From the NCBI GenBank assembly GCA_030646805.1, contig JAUSKZ010000026.1, forward strand, positions 1 through 32,941: a stretch of 32,941 bases of DNA, written 5' to 3'. This document shows, in pieces, positions 1,879-22,567 of the stretch; position 1 is the first letter of the stretch, and each line of letters starts with the position of its first letter. This DNA is from Candidatus Daviesbacteria bacterium. GTDB taxonomy: Bacteria > Patescibacteriota > Microgenomatia > Daviesbacterales > UBA10151. Under the pieces are notes generated by a model. That model was not told where the DNA came from. It was given only the letters and a program-made list of their open reading frames with translations, and made no database searches. The translations under genes were made by a program, and so were the position numbers.

Positions 1879-2691
1879 TTAAGGAATTTGTTTAAGGAAA
1901 CTTAAAGCGCCATAAAGTCCGGAGAGATCTCCCAGCTTTGATTTAACAACCGGGGGAATATTGTTTTGAGGTCGGATTTTTTCCATCTCCCTTTTAATTT
2001 GATCAAAAGGTAAAGACTCCGCGACCCCTCCTCCGAGAATTATTATCTCAGGGGCCCACTTTGAGATTATCCGGTTTAGACCCCAAGCGAGATGCTCTGC
2101 CACCTCAGTCCAAGCTGTCGGGTCGGTTAACTCCCCGGCCGGAGTACCATAAATTTTTTCAATCCCGGTGCCGGAAATCAAACTTTCCCACTCCTGGCCG
2201 TTCTTGAGTGTCATATGACCAACATCATCTTTAATACTGGCGGGGTCTAATTTGCCGTCGATTACCTGGGCTCCGCCCACTCCGGTACTGAGGGTCAGAT
2301 AGGCAACATGTTTAAAACCAATACCTGCGCCATAAGTTGCTTCTCCCAAGGCTGCCAAGGCAGCGTCATTTTCTAAATATACAGGAGAGTTGGTAACCGC
2401 CATCAAATCTTCTTTAATTGGCTGGTTTATCCAAAGAGGCAAGTGAGGAGCCTGGCTTAGAGTTGATTTATCAGGAGTTAACAAGCCGGGCAGGCCAACC
2501 ATAGTTTGAGTTATTAAGTGACTTTCTGAGATAGTAAGATAGTTTTTGATCTGGGTGATCGCTTGGTGGTAGTTTTGGGGTGTCTCAAAGATTTCGACGT
2601 CACTTAACTCCTCGGAATCACTTAAAGCCAGTCGGGTTTTGGTCCCACCAATATCCAAAAGGAGTAACATCTCTAAATTATACATCTTCAC
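1879..2691 (-). CDS. ROK-family sugar kinase (glucokinase-like)
   Basis: LLLDIGGTKTRLALSDS phosphate motif, YLENDAALAALGEA, TLSTGVGGAQVIDGKL; the CxCGxxGC zinc motif is not present. Confidence 0.87.
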   Translation of the reverse strand: MKMYNLEMLLLLDIGGTKTRLALSDSEELSDVEIFETPQNYHQAITQIKNYLTISESHLITQTMVGLPGLLTPDKSTLSQAPHLPLWINQPIKEDLMAVTNSPVYLENDAALAALGEATYGAGIGFKHVAYLTLSTGVGGAQVIDGKLDPASIKDDVGHMTLKNGQEWESLISGTGIEKIYGTPAGELTDPTAWTEVAEHLAWGLNRIISKWAPEIIILGGGVAESLPFDQIKREMEKIRPQNNIPPVVKSKLGDLSGLYGALSFLKQIP

Positions 2692-2737
2692 TTACATATT
2701 TACCTTTTTAGCTTTTCTTTGGTATATTACAAAAACA

Positions 2738-3706
2738 ATGATTGATTTAAAGGAACCTTTTGAGACTGAAACTGAAAGTTTAAGCGCTGAGGGGCTTTAT
2801 CTACAGGAAATTGACCGGGCACCTCTTCTAACTCACCAACAAGAGATATTTTTGGCCCGATCTATCAAACGTGGTGATAGAGCCAAAGTAGCCTTGGATC
2901 TTGAGCCACCACCGATTCTAGAAGAGCGCAGATTAGGGTTTGAATCAGCGATCAGGTTAGGTGAGGTAGCCAGGTCAAGGATGATAGAATCTAATTTAAG
3001 GCTAGTCGTGTCAGTTGCTAAACATAGTTTGGGTAAAGGTTTACCGCTTTTGGATCTAGTTCAAGAGGGAAACTTCGGTTTATTCAGAGCTATTGAAAAA
3101 TTTAACCCAGACAGAGGTTTTAAGTTTGGTACTTATGCTTACCGGTGGATTAGACAAGCAGTCGAGAGGGCTGTTAAAGATAAATCCAGAACAATCAGGG
3201 TGCCTATTCCTATGGTTGAGGAAGGACACACTGTTATTGGGAGAATGCGTAGGGCGGAAGTCTTCTTAGGTAATATGTTGGGGCGGGATCCAAGTTTAAA
3301 AGAGACAGCTCAAGAGATCGGAGTTCCGACAGACCAGCTTGAATTTTTATTATCTTTATTTAATAGACCGGATTCGTTAAACTCAAAAAAAGCGGTCACA
3401 GATATAGACGGAGAAGATGTTTACAACTTAGTTGCTGATAAAACTACGCCTGTCCCGGAAGAACAATCGTTTATCCAAAGTTTGAGAAGAGACTTGAGAA
3501 GTATTTTTGATGATATATTAACAGCAAAAGAGAGAGGAGCTCTTCTTTTGCGGTTTGGTTTGAACGGTGAGGCTGGGATGGCGTATGAACAGATTGGAAA
3601 TAGATTGGGATTTTCCCGGGAATCAGCTAGGCAGACTGAAGCTAGAGCTTTGGAAAAACTACGGGATCCGAAGATAAGGGATAGACTAAAGGATTATTTG
3701 ACCTAA
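2738..3706 (+). CDS. Sigma-70 family RNA polymerase sigma factor (paralog 1)
   Basis: Region 2 '[50 protein letters not shown]', region 4 'FSRESARQTEARALEKLRDP'. Start moved from ORF start 2639 to ATG 2738, after TATATT at 2723. Confidence 0.93.
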   Translation: MIDLKEPFETETESLSAEGLYLQEIDRAPLLTHQQEIFLARSIKRGDRAKVALDLEPPPILEERRLGFESAIRLGEVARSRMIESNLRLVVSVAKHSLGKGLPLLDLVQEGNFGLFRAIEKFNPDRGFKFGTYAYRWIRQAVERAVKDKSRTIRVPIPMVEEGHTVIGRMRRAEVFLGNMLGRDPSLKETAQEIGVPTDQLEFLLSLFNRPDSLNSKKAVTDIDGEDVYNLVADKTTPVPEEQSFIQSLRRDLRSIFDDILTAKERGALLLRFGLNGEAGMAYEQIGNRLGFSRESARQTEARALEKLRDPKIRDRLKDYLT

Positions 3707-3709
3707 AAA

Positions 3710-4738
3710 ATGGTAGTTGAAAATAAACAAGAAATTATCCAATTCGATCCGGAAATTTATTTGATTGAGAAAGAAGCAGCTAATTTGAGGGTTGGAGACT
3801 TAGTGGTTGATAGTCCGCTGAATATGTATTTTCGGGATATAACTCAGTTTCCACTTTTGACCCTGGCTGAGGAAAAGAGAATGACTCGGAGTTTTGATAG
3901 AGCCAGGCGGTTGCGGACTGAGTTGGAAAGTCGGGGAGAAAATTCTATTTTAGTCGATCAAGCCCGAGGACGAGAGAGACTGCTTCGAAATGGCTTGACT
4001 GAGGCCAATCTTAGGTTGGTGGTGGCTATGGCCAAAAGGTATAGTGGTAGAGGGGTCGAGGCGTCTGATTTAATTCAGATGGGAAACGAAGGTTTGATGA
4101 AAGCTGTTGAGAAATTTGATTGGAAAAAGGGTTTTAAGTTTTCAACTTACGCTACCTGGTGGATTAGACAAGCGGTCTCTCGTGGTGTAATTGACGAGGG
4201 TCGAACAATTAGAATTCCTGTTCACTTTATTCCGGGTATTAATGCCTTAAATAGAACCAGGACTCAGTTGGAACGTGAAAGAGAAAGCGGTGATATCAGT
4301 CTGGCTGAAATAGCTGAAGCTATGGGTATACCCGAAGCAAAAGCTTTAGAGCTACATCAAGCGTCTTTAGGGGTCATGTCACTTGACCTGCGGGTAGGAA
4401 GTGACGATGATGACGCTTCTTTCGCCGAGTATTTGCCTGATCTCCAAGCTGATACAGCCCGGGAAGCGGAAGATAATCTCCGGTCTTCTGAAATTCGAAG
4501 AATCCTCGATCAACAAAGTAGTCCAAATCCAGGACAAAGTATAAAACCAATCAAACCAAGACATGTCGAGATTTTTCGAGATAGGCATGGTTTGGACGAT
4601 GGACAACCCAAAACTTTAGGGGTAGTTGCGCAAAGATTCGGAGTTAGCCGGGAAAGGGTCAGACAGATTGAGGGTAAAGTTTTCGAAAAATTGAGGCATC
4701 CATCGGTAACTCGGGAGTTGGCAGTTTTTTTAGATTAA
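3710..4738 (+). CDS. Sigma-70 family RNA polymerase sigma factor (paralog 2)
   Basis: '[58 protein letters not shown]' and '[22 protein letters not shown]'. Immediately follows paralog 1. Confidence 0.93.
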
Positions 4739-4750
4739 TAGTGAATGAGA

Positions 4751-4788
4751 CTATATTCGCTCGCGATTTCAAGGCTCGCGATATAATT
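4751..4788. repeat. 38-bp promoter-like element, copy 1 (inverted partner at 6073-6110)
   Basis: ctatattcgctcgcgatttcaaggctcgcgatataatt; reverse complement matches 36/38 nt of 6073-6110. Contains GCTCGCGAT twice, 15 bp apart. Confidence 0.9.
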
Positions 4789-4797
4789 GAGATAATT

Positions 4798-5823
4798 ATG
4801 GTGGCAGAGGTATTAATCGACAGTCAGCCTACTCAAAGTACTCATCAGGCTGAGGTGCCTCCAATTTTGTTGAATCAACCCTCCCCTTTTTTAGAGATGG
4901 GGAAAGCCAATGGAGATTTAAACCCAACAGCCCTTTATTATAAGGATATTGATCAGGCTAAGTTGTTAACTGCCCGAGATGAAAAGACTTTAGCCCAGAC
5001 AATTGAGAGAGGTAAGCAAGCTTATCAAATTTTACAAACTAGAGACGATTCCGACCCCCAAGTGCTGTCTCGTTTTAACCGATTGATTTCCTCCGGTGAA
5101 AAAGCCAGATTAAGATTAATTGAAGCCAATTTAAGGCTGGTTGTTTCGGTAGCCAAAAAATATATGGGTCGTGGTTTACCGCTGGATGATTTAATCCAGG
5201 AGGGGAATATCGGCCTAGCCCGGGCAGTTGAGAAATTTGAGTGGCGACAGGGTTTTAGGTTTTCAACCTATGCCCATTGGTGGATTAGACAAGGAGTCTC
5301 AAGGGCTCTGGCAGATCAGGCGAGAACAATTCGAATCCCGGTTCATGTCGGCGTAAAGATCCAACAATCCATTAGTGCTGCCCGGAAGCTGGAACAAGAC
5401 TTAGAGCGGGAACCAACTATCGACGAGATAGCTGTTGAACTAAAATGGAAGCCCAAGAGAGTTGAAGAGATTTTCTTGGCTGCCCAGCAACACCGGTTAG
5501 TCTCCCTAGATACTCCAATTGGTGAGGATGAAGGGGATACTACGATTGGAGATTTGGTAGATTCTGATGTAGATACTGCAGAAGAGGCAGTTCAAGCTAC
5601 CAGTCGGTCAACAATTGACGAGGTTTTAGGAGAGTTAAATAAAAACGAACAAAGAGTATTGAGGTTACGGTTTGGCTTAACAGATGGAAATGCGAGAACC
5701 TTACAAGAAGTTGGGGATGAATTGGATGTCAGTCGGGAGAGGATCAGGCAAATTGAAGCTGAGGCACTGGGTAAATTAAGACGCTCAAAAAATGCTGCCA
5801 AACTAAAGGGGTTGCAAGACTGA
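4798..5823 (+). CDS. Sigma-70 family RNA polymerase sigma factor (paralog 3, most RpoD/SigA-like)
   Basis: '[74 protein letters not shown]', 'DVSRERIRQIEAEALGKLR'. ATG 4798 preferred over ORF start 4741 because TATAAT (4782-4787) lies just upstream. Confidence 0.95.
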   Translation: MVAEVLIDSQPTQSTHQAEVPPILLNQPSPFLEMGKANGDLNPTALYYKDIDQAKLLTARDEKTLAQTIERGKQAYQILQTRDDSDPQVLSRFNRLISSGEKARLRLIEANLRLVVSVAKKYMGRGLPLDDLIQEGNIGLARAVEKFEWRQGFRFSTYAHWWIRQGVSRALADQARTIRIPVHVGVKIQQSISAARKLEQDLEREPTIDEIAVELKWKPKRVEEIFLAAQQHRLVSLDTPIGEDEGDTTIGDLVDSDVDTAEEAVQATSRSTIDEVLGELNKNEQRVLRLRFGLTDGNARTLQEVGDELDVSRERIRQIEAEALGKLRRSKNAAKLKGLQD

Positions 5824-5850
5824 AAAGTTCTGAGGCCTTAGTCTTAATGT

Positions 5851-5984
5851 GTCATTCTGGGGACTCAGAGCGAAGCGTGAGGACTCCAGAATCTATAAAA
5901 CAAAAAGATCCTGGACAAGCTCGCCTCGCTTGCGCTCTGGCCAGCTTCGCGGCTAGGCGGGCGAAGCGGGCCAGGATGACAGAG
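5851..5984. repeat. Intergenic palindromic repeat pair (gtcattctgg...ccagaatc and gatcctgg...ccaggatgac)
   Basis: Two adjacent imperfect hairpins: ATTCTGG/CCAGAAT and ATCCTGG/CCAGGAT; GC-rich 'gcgaagcg' loops. Confidence 0.6.
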
Positions 5985-6072
5985 TGTATATCAGCTTCAA
6001 TCACAACATGAAAGCCTTAGTGAGTTACAAATAGTAAGGGTACAAAATGTGGTGAAGGAACAAGATTTTCGA

Positions 6073-6110
6073 AATTATATCGCGAGCCTTGGATTCGCGA
6101 GCGAATATAG
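6073..6110. repeat. 38-bp promoter-like element, copy 2
   Basis: aattatatcgcgagccttggattcgcgagcgaatatag, directly upstream of sigma paralog 4. Confidence 0.9.
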
Positions 6111-6122
6111 TAAAATTAGAAT

Positions 6123-7475
6123 ATGGTGGTAGAAGCTCCGTTACGCGTTATAACTGACTCGCCCCAAGCCTTAGTGGGGCATCACTCGCTTGAAGTAAAG
6201 GTAGCTCCGCTGCGTGGCGATGAGTTTATCAGATCGTTCCTAGAAAAGAATAATCTTAATACTCCTCAGACTGATCTTATTCTTTGGGCCAGAGCAACCC
6301 CTGAAGTTTGGCAAAGAGAAAGACCTCTGAGAAAAGCCCTGCTTAACCTCTCTTTGTTTGGATTCGGAGAACATAAAATAGCCAAAAGAGTCTCGGATCT
6401 TTTTAATATCCCCCAAGAAAAAGTAGGAGCGGAGTACCAAAAAGCCCTGGCCAGGCTGGGTGAAAAACAACGGCAAATATCAGTTCAGAAAGACGATAAT
6501 GAGGAGGAGCCTGAGGAATTTGATGAAGAGGTTCATCAGCTAGAGCAAGAAGCGGGGCGTTCGGAGGAGGGTGGTCAAGTTCCAGAAGCACTACAGATGT
6601 ACTTTGATGGACTCCGTTTGGTTCCACTCTTAAATGGCTACGAAGAGAGGTCAAGAGCTTGGGCCTTGGTCCGTCAAAGAGCAATCCGGCAGAGATTGGA
6701 GGCAGATCCTGAGGCTAGTGACCAAAGTTTAAAGGAAGCCTGGGAAAAAGAAAGAATTTTCCGTAATAACTTGATCGAACCCAACTTAAGGCTGGTGGTT
6801 TCGGTGGCTAAAAGATATATGGGCCGGGGTTTACCGCTAGCTGATCTAATTCAGGAGGGAAATATTGGCTTATTCAGAGCTGTTGAAAAGTTTAAACTAG
6901 AAAAAGGTTTTAAATTTTCAACTTATGCTACCTGGTGGATTAGGCAATCAGTGATGAGGGGAATAGCCGATCAGGCGAGGATCATCAGACGTCCAGTTCA
7001 TATGGAGGGAACTCTTAATTTATATAGAAAAGCCAAGGGAGAACTGGAGCAGGATCTAAAAAGAGCTGTTAGTAATAATGAAATAGCTGTTCATATGGGG
7101 GTGAGTGAGGAAAGGGTGGCTATGTTTCAAAAATTCTCAAGTAGCGTTAGTTCCTTGGATAAGCCGATTGGAGAAGACGAATCGACGATCGGTGATTTGG
7201 TTGCCTCAGATCAAAAGCCGGTAGATGCCGAGGCAGAGCAATCTATCCGCCGGGAGAAGATTGCCACCCTGCTAGAAGGAGCTTTAGATCCGAGAGAGGT
7301 GGTTACGATTAAATTGAGGTTTGGACTTGTTGATGGTGGAGAAAGAACTTTAGAGGAGATAGGACGCGAACTTGGCCTGTCTCGGGAGAGAGCCAGGCAA
7401 ATCCAGGAGGAGGCACTGAAGAAATTAAGACACCCTTCCAGATCTAAGGTACTTAAGGATTGGCTGGATGAGTAG
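6123..7475 (+). CDS. Sigma-70 family RNA polymerase sigma factor (paralog 4) with N-terminal extension
   Basis: '[38 protein letters not shown]...[28 protein letters not shown]', '[25 protein letters not shown]'; ~130-aa N-terminal extension containing an HTH-like segment and an acidic linker. Confidence 0.94.
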
Positions 7476-7636: not shown

Positions 7637-9562
7637 ATGGCTTTAAGAGAATTTCAATCACTGACTGATCAAGTGCTAGATAGAGCAGTTGAATTTGGAA
7701 CTCAGAATTTGTCTCTGATTAGGGAGAGAGATTTTGCGGGGGCACTGGCAGCTGATAAAGATAAAGATGAGGCCTTAATTGTCTATGAAAGGTTGCTTGA
7801 AATTCAGGCGGAAGTGGAAGGGTATGCCGGACGTTTTCATCTAACGCCACTTCTGGATCAGACTACTTTTGACAGACCCGGGATGTTTATGGTTGGCAGA
7901 GATCCTGACAGGGTGCCTTTGATAGATGATCGGGAGAGCAGTTTGGATTCCATAGATAAAACAGATGATGACTTATATTTTTCAGCTAAACGCGATAAAA
8001 ACACAGGTTTTCCCCGGGTTGAAGTAGTTTTAGAACCGGCTCCAAAGATAGGATCAAGTCCTGATGTTATCGCTGACGCTCAAACAATAGGATCAAGTCC
8101 TGATGTTATCGCTGACGCTCAAACAATAGAATCAAGTCCTGTTTCCTCACTAAGTTCGGAAATAGAATCAAGTCCTGATGTTATCGTTGACGCTCAAACA
8201 ATTAAAGTACCTCAGTCAGAGCCGGTCATAATAAAGCCTGAAAAGAAAAGAATGACCTTTCATTTGTCCAGCTTACAGAGAGCGGTAATGGAAGCACTTT
8301 TGGTTGGTGATGAGGAAGGGATAACTTACCGTTATCCACGGCTGGTTGATGTATCCCGCCAGTTGTATGGAGATAAATTCAGAGTCAAAGGTCTTTCCGG
8401 ACAAGCATTAAATATCGCCTTCAACTCTATAGGTGGTAGTATTATCACTGCCCGAATAGAGATTATAAATAAAGCCTTGGAAAAAGCTAAAAATCCTCAC
8501 CACCCCTCAGACGAGGAGTTTGATGAGTTTTTCCAAGCCATAACTCAAGGGAATAACGCTGCGATTGGGGTTGTGGATAGAGCTGCCAGACGTAAGATTA
8601 CTTTTGCTCAGTTTCAAGAGAAGTTCAGACTTGTTACCGGGGTAGAGTTTAGTCTTCCGCCAAAGGCCACCCAGGATTCAGGGGTTGAACTCCTAAATGG
8701 CGTTCAGGAAGAGGGTTTAGACATGGCTACCACGGCTGTTACCGTTCCTTTTCTAGATTCTGACAGTAGTAATGGTAATGGTGCATCTAAGCCTCAAGAA
8801 GAACTCAACATCTCTTCCGATCAACTGAATTTTACCTGGCCTGAGATGTTGCTCTTGGCTCGAGACTTAATTGGAGTTGGTGTTGATGATGATGAAGAGA
8901 AGAGGTTTCTAGTCTCTTGCTTTGGAAATTTACGAGCTAACTCCGGAGTTGTATCCTTGTCGGAGAACCCTGAAACAGTCCTAAGACTTGAGAAGAAGCT
9001 GGGATTACTAAATGGTCCTAAAGGGAAAGAGATGGTGAGATTAATTGATAATCCGCAGATCCAAGCAGTTTTAGCTATTTATGACCGGCTTAGATCTGAC
9101 TCAATAAGTCCCGAGCCAAGTGAGGTAGTTAGTCCTCCTCCGGTTGAGGTAACTACTCCCATAGGTCGAACTACTCTTCTTCCTCCCAGGATAGTGCCTC
9201 AACATAGACGGCGGGAAGCAAATATGACCAAGGATGGACCTCCGGAATTAACTACAGCTGAGAAGTTAGTTCTTGTAGCCGGGATACTTAAGTTAAAACC
9301 TCATCAATTGAGAGAGAGAGGTATTGACCTAACTCCAGAAGATTATGCTTTACTAAGATCAATGGATCATCATTACCGAACTGACCCAAAAGTTAGGGGT
9401 GCCTTTAATGTGGCTCAAAGAACTGTATCTGGGAAGGTGAGGGAGATTAGATTTGGACTCGATCTTGGAATAATAAGCAAAGAGGATTTACCTGAGGATT
9501 TAAGAAGGATAGTCCATATTATCTCTCCCAAAAAAGCCCAAGTAGAAGTAGGTAAGATATGA
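7637..9562 (+). CDS. Hypothetical 641-aa protein linked to the sigma array; internal 13-aa tandem repeats
   Basis: Long ORF with own promoter; IGSSPDVIADAQT repeats; ATGA overlap (9559-9562) with gnd. Possible HTH-like segments; no family recognised. Confidence 0.75.
   Translation: MALREFQSLTDQVLDRAVEFGTQNLSLIRERDFAGALAADKDKDEALIVYERLLEIQAEVEGYAGRFHLTPLLDQTTFDRPGMFMVGRDPDRVPLIDDRESSLDSIDKTDDDLYFSAKRDKNTGFPRVEVVLEPAPKIGSSPDVIADAQTIGSSPDVIADAQTIESSPVSSLSSEIESSPDVIVDAQTIKVPQSEPVIIKPEKKRMTFHLSSLQRAVMEALLVGDEEGITYRYPRLVDVSRQLYGDKFRVKGLSGQALNIAFNSIGGSIITARIEIINKALEKAKNPHHPSDEEFDEFFQAITQGNNAAIGVVDRAARRKITFAQFQEKFRLVTGVEFSLPPKATQDSGVELLNGVQEEGLDMATTAVTVPFLDSDSSNGNGASKPQEELNISSDQLNFTWPEMLLLARDLIGVGVDDDEEKRFLVSCFGNLRANSGVVSLSENPETVLRLEKKLGLLNGPKGKEMVRLIDNPQIQAVLAIYDRLRSDSISPEPSEVVSPPPVEVTTPIGRTTLLPPRIVPQHRRREANMTKDGPPELTTAEKLVLVAGILKLKPHQLRERGIDLTPEDYALLRSMDHHYRTDPKVRGAFNVAQRTVSGKVREIRFGLDLGIISKEDLPEDLRRIVHIISPKKAQVEVGKI
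8051..8203 (+). repeat. 39-bp in-frame tandem repeat (2 identical copies, 1 partial, 1 near-identical)
   Basis: ggatcaagtcctgatgttatcgctgacgctcaaacaata at 8051-8089 and 8090-8128 (identical), partial at 8129-8140, variant at 8165-8203. Confidence 0.9.
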
Positions 9563-14044: not shown

Positions 14045-14290
14045 TTAACTGCGTATCCGCTGAGGTCTTAAGATTTTACGGATAGCTCTGGCCTCGATAT
14101 TTTTTAGAGTGGTTTCGGCAATTCCTGATCCTTGAGATATTTGATCAAAAGTAAGGGGAGGCTTGGTTCTATATCTATAAGTGATAACAGAGACCTCAAT
14201 TGCTGATAAAGATGGTGGTAAATCGCCTCCCAAAAGGTTGTCGATTATAGCTTGACGGTAAGGATCAGGCCGGCCAGATTTTTCAACCAT
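14045..14290 (-). CDS. Stand-alone sigma-70 region-4-like HTH protein (81 aa)
   Basis: LPPSLSAIEVSVITYRYRTKPPLTFDQISQGSGIAETTLKNIEARAIRKILRPQR follows the sigma region 4 pattern (L..E..v...R..., T..qI....gi....l..iEarAirKlr). Confidence 0.6.
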   Translation of the reverse strand: MVEKSGRPDPYRQAIIDNLLGGDLPPSLSAIEVSVITYRYRTKPPLTFDQISQGSGIAETTLKNIEARAIRKILRPQRIRS

Positions 14291-14316: not shown

Positions 14317-14685
14317 TTAAAGTATATCAACGATCTTAGTTTTACCAAAAAATTTTAGATTTAGGAGCTTTTTATCATTTGTTAAAAACAGATCACACTC
14401 TGCTTCTGCTGCACTATTTAGTTGCACATTATCCTCAAAATCAGTTGTCGGCCCATCTAAAGATCTTTCTACTACAATCTTAGAAAAATCTATCAGTTGA
14501 AACTTTTCTTTTTGGCTAGCCACCTTTTTATTAGGTATTTTTATTTTGTAGGTATAGCAGTAGATATGGAGTGAAAGAGGAGAGATACAGATAATATGCC
14601 CCTCCAAAGAATCAAGAATTTGTCTTTCAGGTTTTCTGTGGATAGCATCAATAAAGTAGTTGGTATCAAGAAAGACCTTTGCCAT
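14317..14685 (-). CDS. PIN-domain toxin (VapC-like)
   Basis: KVFLDTNYFIDAI N-terminus and acidic 'AAEAECDLFLTNDKKLL' motif. Confidence 0.8.
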   Translation of the reverse strand: MAKVFLDTNYFIDAIHRKPERQILDSLEGHIICISPLSLHIYCYTYKIKIPNKKVASQKEKFQLIDFSKIVVERSLDGPTTDFEDNVQLNSAAEAECDLFLTNDKKLLNLKFFGKTKIVDIL

Positions 14686-14935
14686 ATTTTTCTACAAGGT
14701 GTTTTCTATATGTTTTTTCTCTTTGAGCATATGTCATCTTGGGGAGATTAAGCTCTTTAGCTAACCTTTTAAGTTCTTTAATGCCCGACTTGGTCATAGG
14801 TTTTGCATCCTGTTTAGGTTTGAATTCACCGATAACTTTTGAGCGGTGGATTAATGAAACTGAGCCACCTTTTTTGAGGGTTTCAACAAGTTGAGAAGAC
14901 TTTGTTCTAAGCTCTGTCGTGGTAATGTAATTCAT
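14666..14935 (-). CDS. Phd/YefM-type antitoxin, partner of the PIN toxin
   Basis: MNYITTTELRTKSSQLVETLKKGGSVSLIHRSKVIGEFKP; overlaps the PIN gene by 20 nt. Confidence 0.75.
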   Translation of the reverse strand: MNYITTTELRTKSSQLVETLKKGGSVSLIHRSKVIGEFKPKQDAKPMTKSGIKELKRLAKELNLPKMTYAQREKTYRKHLVEKYGKGLS

Positions 14936-14963: not shown

Positions 14964-15081
14964 TTGTCAAGAAAATAGGATATACTTTAGTTATGGAACA
15001 GGAGAGTTCGGAAAAGAAACTTGAAGTATTTAAAGCTAATTTTGAGCAGGGATTGATGATATTTTAGAATCAGCAGAGGTT

Positions 15082-15390
15082 ATGCTTGATATCCCCCGGC
15101 CTCCAGATCCGTACTCTATGGGTTTTGACGAAAGAACGTTGGAGGAGTTAACTCCTGCTGAGTTGGAAGTTGCCAGACGGGTAATTTATAGTAAATTAGG
15201 TTTGGACCCCGACAAAATAGATGATGATAAAGTTAGGACTTATGAATCACCAGTCCCGGAAGATGCCAAATCTCCTGGGATTATTAAGATTGACGTCTTC
15301 AAGACAAATAATCCAGATATTTTCCTTCAAGAACTTAACTCTCCAGATGGAGAAAAGAGATGGTTAATTGGGCCAGACCAAGATATCTGA
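15082..15390 (+). CDS. Hypothetical protein (102 aa as called; true N-terminus probably at 14993 with a frameshift near 15049)
   Basis: Upstream ATG 14993 after TATACT encodes MEQESSEKKLEVFKANFEQG; one extra base in the G-run 15049-15051 would read on into IDDILESAEVMLDIPRPPD. Confidence 0.6.
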   Translation: MLDIPRPPDPYSMGFDERTLEELTPAELEVARRVIYSKLGLDPDKIDDDKVRTYESPVPEDAKSPGIIKIDVFKTNNPDIFLQELNSPDGEKRWLIGPDQDI

Positions 15391-15393
15391 AAA
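15314..15393 (+). repeat. 80-bp direct repeat, copy 1 (3' end of the 102-aa CDS)
   Basis: About 6 mismatches over 80 nt versus 17843-17922. Confidence 0.9.
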
Positions 15394-15519
15394 TCAGTAG
15401 TAATTTTACCTGCCCACATCCCTCTCCAACCTTTTAAGATTTTTTCTAAAGTTGGGTCTATAAAATTCATCTTTACCACAGCATAGCTATATCATTTGAT
15501 CTGATATAATCTAACAAGA

Positions 15520-15900
15520 ATGCCTAAAGGGAAGAGGGTTGGTAAATTTAGTAAGGCTAGGTCAAAAGCAAAAACATATTATTTTAGGTATTGGTCGGGC
15601 CATGAAAAGATAACGCCAGCTTTTAAAAAGAAAGTTCTAGTTACTAGATCGGGTTGGGACCACCTGATAAATCCACCGCATAAACGTACAAAGGTTGAAC
15701 AGATGGAAAGGTTTAGGATCCTTCCGCTCGCAAGAAAGCTGCTAGAGACGGCTCAAACCTTTCAGGAGCATAGAAAGGATAACCTAGGGCATTATTTTGC
15801 CTTTAGTGGATATATTGGAGGGAGAAAAATTAAAGTAATAGTTAGGTCAAAAACTTTTGAAGGACAGAAATACTTTTACTCTTTAATGGTTCTTTGGTGA
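15520..15900 (+). CDS. Putative BECR/RelE-like toxin nuclease domain protein (126 aa)
   Basis: 'VLVTRSGWDHLINPPHKRTKVEQMERFRILPLARKLLETAQ...HYFAFSGYIGGRKIKVIVRSKTFEGQKYFYSLMVLW' resembles PBECR-type small nucleases. TATAAT 9 nt upstream of ATG. Confidence 0.5.
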   Translation: MPKGKRVGKFSKARSKAKTYYFRYWSGHEKITPAFKKKVLVTRSGWDHLINPPHKRTKVEQMERFRILPLARKLLETAQTFQEHRKDNLGHYFAFSGYIGGRKIKVIVRSKTFEGQKYFYSLMVLW

Positions 15901-16067
15901 GACGTCTTCCACTTTATGCAGGTGCAATAATGGGGTCAGGGTCAAGCCCTCCGCCTCACTTAGTATTCTATGTTTTTTCATCTCTTCAGTCAAGTATGAG
16001 GTGAGTAAGCAGGGACTAGTTTATCAGAAGTCTATTCTATTTCTTCGGGCTTAGTTATAATCCAATT

Positions 16068-16610
16068 GTGTTAACCGACAAACAAATCAAAAGATTAATT
16101 AAACAAAGGAATATTTCCGTTGAACCTTTTGATGAAAAGAATGTAAAGGCAGGAAAACTAGATATTCACCTCGGACAATTTATTCTTAAACCTAAATCTT
16201 CTACCAAAGTAATTGATCCACAGCAACTAAATTTTAATCCTGAATATACAAAATATGACTTAATGAAAGATGGTTATATCTTAAAACCAGGTGAATTTAT
16301 ACTTGGACAGACACTTGAATTGATTGGCTTAGACTCCAATACAGGAATGTTTCTTGATGGTAGTACAACAATGGCCAGGCTTGGATTAACAATTCATCAA
16401 TCCTCTATGTTTGTACCACCTGGTCAAGACCCTCACATATTAACTCTAGAGATTCTCAATTCTGGAATATGGAAGGTGAGATTGTCCTATAAATTAAGAG
16501 TGGGTAAAGTTGTCGTGTTTAGGTATTCAGAGAATAATACTACCGATGCCAAGGTTTTTAATCAATATAATGGTCAGAAAGAAGTTACGGGAGCAATTTT
16601 TAGGAAATAA
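16068..16610 (+). CDS. dCTP deaminase/dUTPase-family protein (divergent)
   Basis: GTG start after TATAAT (16056-16061). MLTDKQIKRLIKQ, DGSTTMARLGLTIHQSSMFVPPGQDPHILTLEILNSG. Confidence 0.75.
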   Translation: MLTDKQIKRLIKQRNISVEPFDEKNVKAGKLDIHLGQFILKPKSSTKVIDPQQLNFNPEYTKYDLMKDGYILKPGEFILGQTLELIGLDSNTGMFLDGSTTMARLGLTIHQSSMFVPPGQDPHILTLEILNSGIWKVRLSYKLRVGKVVVFRYSENNTTDAKVFNQYNGQKEVTGAIFRK

Positions 16611-16614
16611 AACA

Positions 16615-16740
16615 GTGAATGAGGTTTATGAAGTTATTTATCATCCATTTCCAGCCAGAGAGATGGTCTGTGTTAAAGAATTACCTTTAGGATCTAAAAC
16701 CAAGCTCATTATCGTTATCTCATTGGATAAAACTATATAG
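16615..16740 (+). pseudogene. C-terminal remnant of a RidA/YjgF-family gene
   Basis: VNEVYEVIYHPFPAREMVCVKELPLGSKTKLIIVISLD matches the RidA C-terminal pattern (NevY...f..pPAR..v.V..LP.ga.vei..ia); N-terminal two thirds absent. Confidence 0.55.
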
Positions 16741-16798
16741 AGCTTGTCAAAAGTTTCATTGATGACAGTAGAAGGAACAATTTTCAAAGGACATCAAT

Positions 16799-17050
16799 CT
16801 ACTTTCTTTGTGGCATCCCCAGTTTTGCCTGCTCACATTGACCCTTAACAATAGGTACATCTAAAAATGTTTCGCAATTATCACAAAGCGTATGCATTTC
16901 GCCATCTATGTGCTCATTGAGCTTAATTTCCTGCAATCCATTTGCAAGTACGTAACCATCATAAGTTAAATATTTACTTTGCCATTCGTCAATTTTTTCA
17001 TTGCATTTAGGGCATCTCATTGTACTGTTGATAACATTGTATACTCCCAT
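16799..17050 (-). CDS. Small zinc-ribbon protein
   Basis: MRCPKCNEKID...LCDNCETF, two CxxC knuckles. Confidence 0.55.
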   Translation of the reverse strand: MGVYNVINSTMRCPKCNEKIDEWQSKYLTYDGYVLANGLQEIKLNEHIDGEMHTLCDNCETFLDVPIVKGQCEQAKLGMPQRK

Positions 17051-17121
17051 ATTAGACCGTAAACTTTACTAGATGTTTATTATATCAACTAGGTGAAATC
17101 TATAAAATATCCGAACTTAAT

Positions 17122-17793
17122 TTATTTAGCTGTCATTAAGGCGAAAATCCACTTCTCTTCAAAACTGGGAATATACACATCTCTTCTATAAACTTTTGCA
17201 AATCCTTCAAGTAACCTAGCTAATAAATACCTATTCCTGTACGCATACTCAACCGACAGTAGTCCACCTTCTTCTAAATGACTACCAAGAACTCTAAAAA
17301 AATTAAGAGAGTAAAGATTGGTTGATGGAGTCGAGTCTCTGTTCTGCCATCTATAAGGGTCAGTTAGATCCCAAACAATGAGATCATAGTGTTCTTTTGA
17401 TTGTTGAACAAATTTTCCGGCATCTTCATAATGTAATTTAAGTCTCGGATCGTCAAAAGCTCCTTGGTGCCACTGTGGTAAATATTCCTTACAGATTGCT
17501 ACTAAACCTGGATCGATATCAACCATTGTTACTTTTTCTACCGTAGGTTGTTTTAAGATCTGTTTTGCTGTTGCACCCTCACCACCACCCAATATAAGTG
17601 CAGTTTTGATTCTTGGATTAAACTTAAAAGCTGGGCAAACTAAAGCTGAGTGGTATTGGCCCTGATCAGATTCAGCTGACTGCAAATCACCGTCTAGGAA
17701 TAAACACTTACCATATTCAGGTGTCACTGCTATGGTAACTCGTTGGAATGGAGTAGTCGTATCAATAAGTATTTCAGTCCGCTCGTCTAACAT
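17122..17793 (-). CDS. speE: Spermidine synthase-like (polyamine aminopropyltransferase) methyltransferase-fold protein
   Basis: LFLDGDLQSAESDQGQYHSALVCPAF, LILGGGEGATAKQILKQPTVEKVTMVDIDPGLV, DLIVWDLTDP. Confidence 0.82.
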   Translation of the reverse strand: MLDERTEILIDTTTPFQRVTIAVTPEYGKCLFLDGDLQSAESDQGQYHSALVCPAFKFNPRIKTALILGGGEGATAKQILKQPTVEKVTMVDIDPGLVAICKEYLPQWHQGAFDDPRLKLHYEDAGKFVQQSKEHYDLIVWDLTDPYRWQNRDSTPSTNLYSLNFFRVLGSHLEEGGLLSVEYAYRNRYLLARLLEGFAKVYRRDVYIPSFEEKWIFALMTAK

Positions 17794-17842
17794 GGTGGTA
17801 ATTATATTACTTTTGTGGTTAGAGTTCGAATTGTATTCCCTT

Positions 17843-17922
17843 CAGACATTTTCCTTCAAGAACTTACTTCTCCGGATGGAGAAAAGAGATGGTTAATTGG
17901 ACCAGATCAAGATATCTGAAAG
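17843..17922 (+). pseudogene. Displaced/duplicated 3' tail of the 102-aa CDS (copy 2 of the 80-bp direct repeat)
   Basis: Encodes IFLQELTSPDGEKRWLIGPDQDI*; upstream sequence is unrelated to copy 1. Confidence 0.88.
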
Positions 17923-18030: not shown

Positions 18031-19053
18031 TTAAGCTGCAAGTAGAGATATAATCCGTGAAGCAGGGAATTTTTTATCTAATCCTTTGGATCGTATTTTT
18101 CTTAAGAAGCTCGCAGGCACATCTTCTCGGTTTTCTGCAGATTGAAAAACTTCTTCAACATCATCTGTTAAAAATTCTGAGCCAATTTCCCTAAGTGAGT
18201 CTTTAAATTCGCCAAAGTTTAGACTTGATATATCAAGCGTGTTTTGTAAAACGCGTTGAAGTAGTGATCTTGCAAGTAATATATCGTCGACTTGTTTTTC
18301 GAACATAAAGGCACGCAGAGCTTCGCTTTCATAGTCGAAATTATAAGGAGAGTTGCTAAATTCTCGAGATACCTTATCGGGTAGTTTCTTCTTTAGATCA
18401 ATATATAATCCAGTGTGCACAGCTCCAATAACTAACAATACTTGGATTTCTTTTTTGTCTTTTAGGTCAGGGCTATTTTGGATTATGCTTTGAACAGTGG
18501 GGTCAAGCTGGGAAAGCATATATTCTTCTCGTTGTTTTTGAATCAGAGCAAATGCTTTAACATACTCTTGCCAGTCATTGATAAAATCACTAAAATCTTC
18601 ATGTGACCTGTTTGCCGGTGAATACATAAAGTAGAGAGCTCCTTGGAGTCCAAACGTTCTGAGTAATCCTGTACTCTGTTCGAGTAAATGGTGGTTCAAA
18701 GGAAGATCGATATAGCCGAATGGTTTTTGAGTGTTATATCTAGCCTGAAGTTCGGATAGATAAATAGCATACCTTGAGTTGTCTAATGATACATTGTCTC
18801 TTGCAAGTTCCTCTTCTGGAGTTCTCCTGCCGTCAATAACTTCTTGAGTATTTCTTTGCAAATCATGATCCCAGCCAACTGATTCATCAATTACAATGTC
18901 AGCTTGCTCTATGTGTTCTCTCTGCAGTGCATAATCCCTTTTTGTACCATGTTCACCGAAGAAAAATTTATAGTAAATATTCGGCCCACCCGGAACTTCT
19001 TTTTGCAAAGGGTAGGGCGCATCCTTTAATTTTAAATCGTTCAGAATTTCCAT
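18031..19053 (-). CDS. Hypothetical 340-aa protein, possibly TraB/Tiki/EreA-like
   Basis: FFGEHGTKRDYALQREHIEQADIVIDESVGWD...VLLVIGAVHTGLYIDLKKKLP suggests this superfamily, weakly. Confidence 0.5.
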   Translation of the reverse strand: MEILNDLKLKDAPYPLQKEVPGGPNIYYKFFFGEHGTKRDYALQREHIEQADIVIDESVGWDHDLQRNTQEVIDGRRTPEEELARDNVSLDNSRYAIYLSELQARYNTQKPFGYIDLPLNHHLLEQSTGLLRTFGLQGALYFMYSPANRSHEDFSDFINDWQEYVKAFALIQKQREEYMLSQLDPTVQSIIQNSPDLKDKKEIQVLLVIGAVHTGLYIDLKKKLPDKVSREFSNSPYNFDYESEALRAFMFEKQVDDILLARSLLQRVLQNTLDISSLNFGEFKDSLREIGSEFLTDDVEEVFQSAENREDVPASFLRKIRSKGLDKKFPASRIISLLAA

Positions 19054-19092
19054 ATTAGAATTTACTTCCTGTATATTTCGTCATGAGTGCCT

Positions 19093-19130
19093 TGCAGGAA
19101 GCCGAGGGATTTTAGCCCTCGGAACTTCAC
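19093..19130. repeat. REP-like hairpin repeat (copy A)
   Basis: tgcaggaagccgagggattttagccctcggaacttcac; stem CCGAGGG/CCCTCGG. Confidence 0.7.
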
Positions 19131-19864
19131 TTTGAGATAAACCGCTCTGATACTGGATAAATGGCTCGGAATATAGCCCTTGAGAAATCTGCTCCTGCAG
19201 CAACGAATTCAGGAACCAGCATTTCGGATAAATTGTATTGTTCTAACCTATTGGGCAATCCTTTTAGTTGTTTATTTAATTCATCCACTAATATAAAACC
19301 TTTAGGATTTTTACTAGTGGTTTCATCGAATAAAACTGACCATCTATTTTTCTCAGATTGGATTTTAAGAAATATTGAAGCTTGATCAGTAATACTAATA
19401 ACTTTCCCCAAGAAATGCTCTGATTCCTCAGTTGTGTCTGCAATAACAGTAGATAAATCCGGTATAGATTTAGCAGATTCAGGTTTTGTGATTGCTATAA
19501 TAGGATGAATTCCCATTGTAGCACCAAAATCTGTATCAAAAAATAAAATAAACAATGCAGGTTGCTGGTCTTGTCGAGCTCTTATAGCATTTGATCTAAA
19601 AGCATCCACTGCAGCATCTGTGGCATAGAATGCAGAGAGAGTAGCTGGTCCTAAATAACTTTTCCTAACTCCTAAACGATCAACGACTTCATCTAATCGG
19701 TTGTGAACTCGAGATGAGTTCGATCTAATTAGTTCTAATTCTTCTTCTTGAGTAGGTGTAATTACTTTCTGAACTGCTTGAGTTGCTCGTGCGATATCAA
19801 ACGGTTGATAGCCTGTCTGGCTAAGGGCTTTCCTAATGATGTATGAGTCAGGATTTTCTATCAT
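19127..19864 (-). CDS. Hypothetical 245-aa protein
   Basis: Long complete ORF; no family recognised. Confidence 0.55.
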   Translation of the reverse strand: MIENPDSYIIRKALSQTGYQPFDIARATQAVQKVITPTQEEELELIRSNSSRVHNRLDEVVDRLGVRKSYLGPATLSAFYATDAAVDAFRSNAIRARQDQQPALFILFFDTDFGATMGIHPIIAITKPESAKSIPDLSTVIADTTEESEHFLGKVISITDQASIFLKIQSEKNRWSVLFDETTSKNPKGFILVDELNKQLKGLPNRLEQYNLSEMLVPEFVAAGADFSRAIFRAIYPVSERFISK

Positions 19865-22470: not shown

Positions 22471-22567
22471 TAATTATTTTAATTGCTGTTAATTAAATCA
22501 AGATTGCGCAGCAAGATTATTTTAATGCTGCCATTAAATCAAGATTGCGCAGCAAGATTATTTTAAT
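22471..22567 (+). repeat. ~2.5 copies of a 41-bp tandem repeat
   Basis: attaaatcaagattgcgcagcaagattattttaat at 22492-22526 and 22533-22567 (identical), degenerate half copy at 22471-22490. Confidence 0.88.

Follow-up and report, generated by a model that had tools for sequence, protein, structure and literature searches.

The last 26 codons of an accessory gene in a Candidatus Daviesbacteria bacterium are present twice, about 2.5 kb apart, on either side of a handful of apparently acquired genes. We will argue that the tail duplicate and the block that it bounds most likely record an ordinary acquisition of DNA, of which they would be the scar. An insertion in general is plausible, and its best reading, to which we assign a probability of roughly 0.4, is a join that was homologous at one end, within the shared tail, and illegitimate at the far end, as in homology-facilitated illegitimate recombination (HFIR). 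The stretch of DNA that was analysed, called the window here, is the continuous contig C2 (32,941 nucleotides, ca 33 kb) of a 685-kb MAG in 49 contigs.

The direct repeat consists of 79 nt at 15314-15392 and 17843-17921, both read on the plus strand, with 73 of the 79 bases identical (92%). A BLAST search against the own genome recovered the second copy with an E-value of 6.6e-28 and gave no third one in the 685-kb MAG. The longest exact run common to both is 26 nt, with the core GATGGAGAAAAGAGATGGTTAATTGG, and both finish with the same stop codon plus three bases (TGA-AAA). The first copy is the 3' tail of the full gene. The second is tail-only, begins 50 nt upstream of the start codon of a SpeE-like gene, and has an open frame with the translation SDIFLQELTSPDGEKRWLIGPDQDI followed by the stop. 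Beyond either edge of the two copies the sequences are unrelated; the left edge is abrupt and falls within the coding frame (17842/17843 in the tail-only copy), and the right edge is the onset of intergenic sequence. These results bear out the original prediction of a duplicated coding-sequence tail of ca 92% identity that ends just past the stop codon, and also that the duplication is limited to the tail.

The gene to which the tail belongs (14994-15390, plus strand) was delineated from its open reading frames, a six-frame reading, homologues and a profile match, and codes for an acidic protein of about 135 aa from a family without a name; none of the Pfam or NCBIfam profiles matched it above cut-off. 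Its longest ATG-initiated frame is 15082-15390. In the assembly, however, a 1-nt frameshift near 15047 (within 14994-15060) interrupts the gene, such that it starts at about 14994 in the other frame. The N-terminus reads MEQESSEKKLEVFKANFEQG in one frame, from about 14994, and continues as IDDILESAEVMLDIPRPP... in the next, and the profile match to the family spans 15028-15387, passing through stops. This is either a recent break or a one-base mis-assembly near 15047. The earlier suggestion of a restored target gene holds in that a whole gene is followed by a tail-only copy, but the frameshift in the gene body had been missed.

Protein and profile searches located the family in seven other genomes (G005, G006, G001, G067, G155, G258 and, more weakly, G047), with one copy in each and none of the seven a close relative. 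The family is thus sporadic. The homologues are about 133-145 aa long where the frame was read, a matching N-terminus is found in G005, G006 and G001, and the G005 protein is 59% identical to that of the window. At the 3' end, the family protein reads ELTFQDGHKSWVIGPDQNI in G005 and ELNSPDGEKRWLIGPDQDI in the window. Because the full gene belongs to a protein family that shares this end, the repeat is the native 3' end of the gene.

We now turn to the genes between the two tails. A 126-aa frame at 15520-15900 (plus strand) is LPD3/BECR-like and may code for a toxin, with a match to PF18798 (E 1.6e-4, 22.3 bits) that lies below the Pfam cut-off of 27. It is followed on the same strand by a dCTP deaminase (Dcd) family protein at 16068-16610 (TIGR02274, 98.0 bits, above the NCBIfam cut-off of 92.8). 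This is a diverged second copy, 37% identical to a better-scoring Dcd gene on contig C9. Joined directly to the end of dcd is the 3' tail of a RidA-family gene (16609-16740, plus strand; TIGR00004, E 0.0028, profile positions 86-122 of 125), a remnant of about the last third of the gene; intact RidA was not found elsewhere in the MAG. On the minus strand follow an 83-aa zinc-ribbon-like protein with two CxxC pairs and weak MJ0042/CXXC matches (16799-17050) and the SpeE-like protein, a member of the spermidine synthase family with a short C-terminus (17122-17793; PF01564, E 6e-31). A counterpart of the latter was found in none of the 44 other genomes of the taxonomic family and is rare in the class. 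The accessory genes that had been anticipated between the tails are thereby recovered, the BECR-like one with a match that does not reach the Pfam cut-off.

Judged from these assignments, the block of ca 2.45 kb looks acquired: SpeE is absent from the 44 other family genomes, the genome has a second, better-scoring Dcd from which that of the block has diverged, and the RidA remnant lies inside it. The GC content is 0.361, close to the 0.379 and 0.368 of the neighbours, and composition thus does not mark the block as foreign. Searches of the region for defence and phage families returned Dcd only from PHROGs and, from PADLOC, a resemblance of SpeE to mads_2 (a methyltransferase-fold match) and a weak one of a neighbouring PIN protein to GajA. 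Phage SpeE matches are less than 60% identical. A viral, phage or plasmid origin of the block was rejected: the block together with the tail has no nucleotide match in IMG/VR or in the phage and plasmid collections, and these gave no usable relatives. The idea that the tail-only copy serves as a terminator or promoter was likewise dropped. Promoter matches over the region number 19 against 9.9 expected, including a weak one at 17859-17830 (minus strand) before SpeE; no terminator was found in the tail-only copy.

The differences between the two tails are informative about their history. Five of the six differences across the 79 nt fall at third codon positions, and a single residue is changed (Asn/Thr). 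When six changes are placed at random, one residue change or fewer has P=0.002, and the tail-to-tail comparison gives dN 0.018 and dS 0.47. Since the differences are biased to third positions and alter only one residue, most of the divergence would have arisen while both copies were coding, which in turn speaks against a local duplicate of recent date that decayed where it stands. With G005 as the outgroup, the tail-only copy carries the G005 base at five of the six sites, i.e. five of the derived differences lie in the tail of the full gene and one in the tail-only copy. Under equal rates, one of six or fewer on one named branch has P=0.11, and the counts are small. The direction is nevertheless opposite to that expected for a decaying non-coding duplicate. 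The tail-only remnant is thus probably young, and the pattern can be accounted for by the alleles of a donor and a recipient or by two paralogs of long standing.

In the mechanism that we favour, a foreign segment of about 2.45 kb would have entered the chromosome where the accessory gene has its 3' end. At one end, a homologous crossover would have taken place in the gene tail common to donor and recipient, such that the recipient gene body now bears the donor tail. The far end would have been closed by an illegitimate join immediately upstream of the original tail of the recipient, and this tail would stay as the 26-codon remnant. The crossover, the choice of the native tail and DNA uptake as the source are all inferred. 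What speaks for the mechanism is a homologous anchor with donor-type divergence, namely tails that are 92% identical and differ in a coding-type manner, together with the sporadic distribution of the block genes, as seen for SpeE and for the diverged second Dcd. The absence of a recombinase from the block fits as well, because a one-sided join needs no site-specific recombinase, and the RidA remnant, a second truncated tail, points to repeated illegitimate joins. It is further favoured by the restriction of the duplicate to the tail, with its abrupt left edge, and by the G005 comparison, in which the derived changes lie mostly in the full gene. Against it, neither a donor nor an empty site was found among the genomes and collections searched, and the number of differences is small.

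HFIR, with one homologous and one illegitimate end, has been described in naturally transformable species (PMC3240628, PMC5361080). It is known from Acinetobacter, Streptococcus pneumoniae and Pseudomonas stutzeri, and it has also been reported for E. coli conjugation (PMC3240628). Where measured, its frequency is low (PMC3240628, PMC5361080), which counts against HFIR in the present case. Competence and homologous-recombination genes have been reported in Patescibacteria (PMC12455944). The window shares with the described events (PMC3240628) one homologous and one non-homologous end, the addition of foreign genes beside the anchor, and the lack of need for a site-specific recombinase; it differs in that the event is here deduced from its scar alone. 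A further likeness is to the orphan 3' regions and immunity-gene arrays of T6SS/Rhs loci (PMC5361080), where an incoming module displaces a gene via a shared anchor and the old leftover remains downstream. In those loci, however, the anchor is the conserved 5' part and the leftover is a variable 3' end or an immunity gene, whereas in the window the two tails, leftover and joined, hardly differ, and no known effector is encoded by the gene.

Another option considered was that the gene was formerly present in two full copies with other genes between them, and that the downstream one was truncated by a deletion or by the insertion of the SpeE end of the block, which left the tail. The coding-type divergence would be equally natural in this case, the RidA remnant demonstrates that 5' truncation occurs in the region, and erosion of genes is typical of small genomes. 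However, all seven other genomes that bear the family, which are more distant relatives, have a single full-length copy, and most of the derived changes lie in the tail of the full gene. We regard an eroded paralog as a serious alternative, but as less likely than not.

The original prediction was that of an integration that restores the 3' end of its target gene. This would correspond to a small island that now lacks a recombinase, or that was mobilised in trans (CIME-like), and that entered the gene end, restored the gene and displaced the old tail. A regenerated target together with a displaced fragment is the mark used for mapping islands in tRNA genes (PMC4383910), and by the same logic it could be applied to protein genes. 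Here, too, the whole target lies at one end and the short displaced tail at the other, although the gene body is frameshifted; the 79-nt repeat with its 26-nt exact run bounds the block, and the block is foreign-looking. On the other hand, no integrase, resolvase or transposase is present among the block frames, within which serine recombinases were also searched for. A single tyrosine recombinase (PF00589) was found in the genome; it is encoded on contig C8 and, with 62% identity to the Xer-type gene of G005, looks like a conserved Xer. Furthermore, the target gene is accessory and of sporadic occurrence, neither the tail nor the block recurs in the collections named above, and no relative gave an empty site. 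The case thus departs from Islander-type islands in that the block lacks an integrase and no empty site was found in the relatives searched, and in its protein-coding, accessory and frameshifted target. The architecture and the foreign look of the block agree with an insertion that brought along a tail, and the synonymous-biased divergence with a meeting of two different alleles, while a recombinase, an intact gene and a mobile match are missing. A one-sided homologous recombination or the erosion of a second copy of the gene would leave the same picture. The island reading is backed by the geometry and not supported beyond it, and we consider it unlikely. A broader variant, in which the family tail would be an attachment site for tiny recombinase-less cargo blocks that the Xer-type recombinase of the cell moves in trans in ultra-small Patescibacteria, is highly improbable. 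Nothing found shows the tail and block to be a mobile element.

We have also considered an artefact of the metagenome assembly, in which variants of one gene from different strains would have been put together and the second tail would be false. The 49 contigs of the MAG and the suspicious 1-nt frameshift in the target gene would be compatible with this. However, the copies show six differences and are separated by 2.5 kb within one unbroken contig of 33 kb, and a k-mer-driven misjoin would usually want an identical overlap longer than 26 nt, which makes an artefact very unlikely. Finally, a palindromic or MITE-like small repeat inserted in frame at the gene end, suggested by unit ends with 10 complementary positions that fold onto one another, has next to no likelihood: it is ruled out by the presence of only two copies in the genome, by homologues that carry the tail as native protein sequence, and by a synonymous-codon control in which 11% of synonymous versions reach equal or better terminal complementarity. 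The complementary 10-bp ends arise because Asp-Ile codons stand at both ends of the unit. An RNA structure in the tail was likewise rejected, as its fold does not stand out clearly from those of shuffled sequences (z -1.5 and -1.0).

An uninterrupted site was looked for in relatives, all of them from outside the genus and none with a neighbourhood in common, and was not located. The gene order around the target-family gene is common to no relative, according to searches with the PGI, HAD and 340-aa neighbours and a comparison of the family-gene loci. The PGI flank gene is present in 1 of 42 other relatives searched, and 56 related genomes gave no counterpart of the 340-aa neighbour. The flanks thus appear to be accessory too, and the region variable as a whole, which explains the failure of the empty-site comparison. 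At 18031-19864 (minus strand) there are two genes, of 340 and 245 aa, with no family match above cut-off. The gene adjoining the target is a PIN-domain toxin with an upstream antitoxin-like frame (14317-14935, minus strand).

The tail duplication on its own changes little and is ordinary in kind. It offers a small, readable case of accessory genes being gained, with no visible mobile element, by an ultra-small bacterium whose genome is reduced. If the HFIR reading is true, gene-tail scars could be used for counting such events across Patescibacteria.

Some features elsewhere in the window deserve mention. Four tandem sigma-70 (RpoD-like) genes lie side by side at 2639-7475, with a mutual identity of 61-71% over a 234-nt core, a number that is unusual for a 685-kb genome. 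A sigma region-4-like frame of 81 aa is found at 14045-14290 (minus strand). An inverted repeat of 47 nt (4750-4796 and 6065-6111, 89% complementary, 1268 nt apart) brackets the third sigma gene, immediately ahead of the fourth, and could be an operator/promoter that is shared or a segment that can invert. Downstream of the sigma cluster, a 641-aa gene contains near-identical, in-frame direct repeats of 42 nt at 8047-8202, with spacings of 39 and 75, and two perfect 35-nt direct repeats are located at 22492-22567, 41 nt from start to start.
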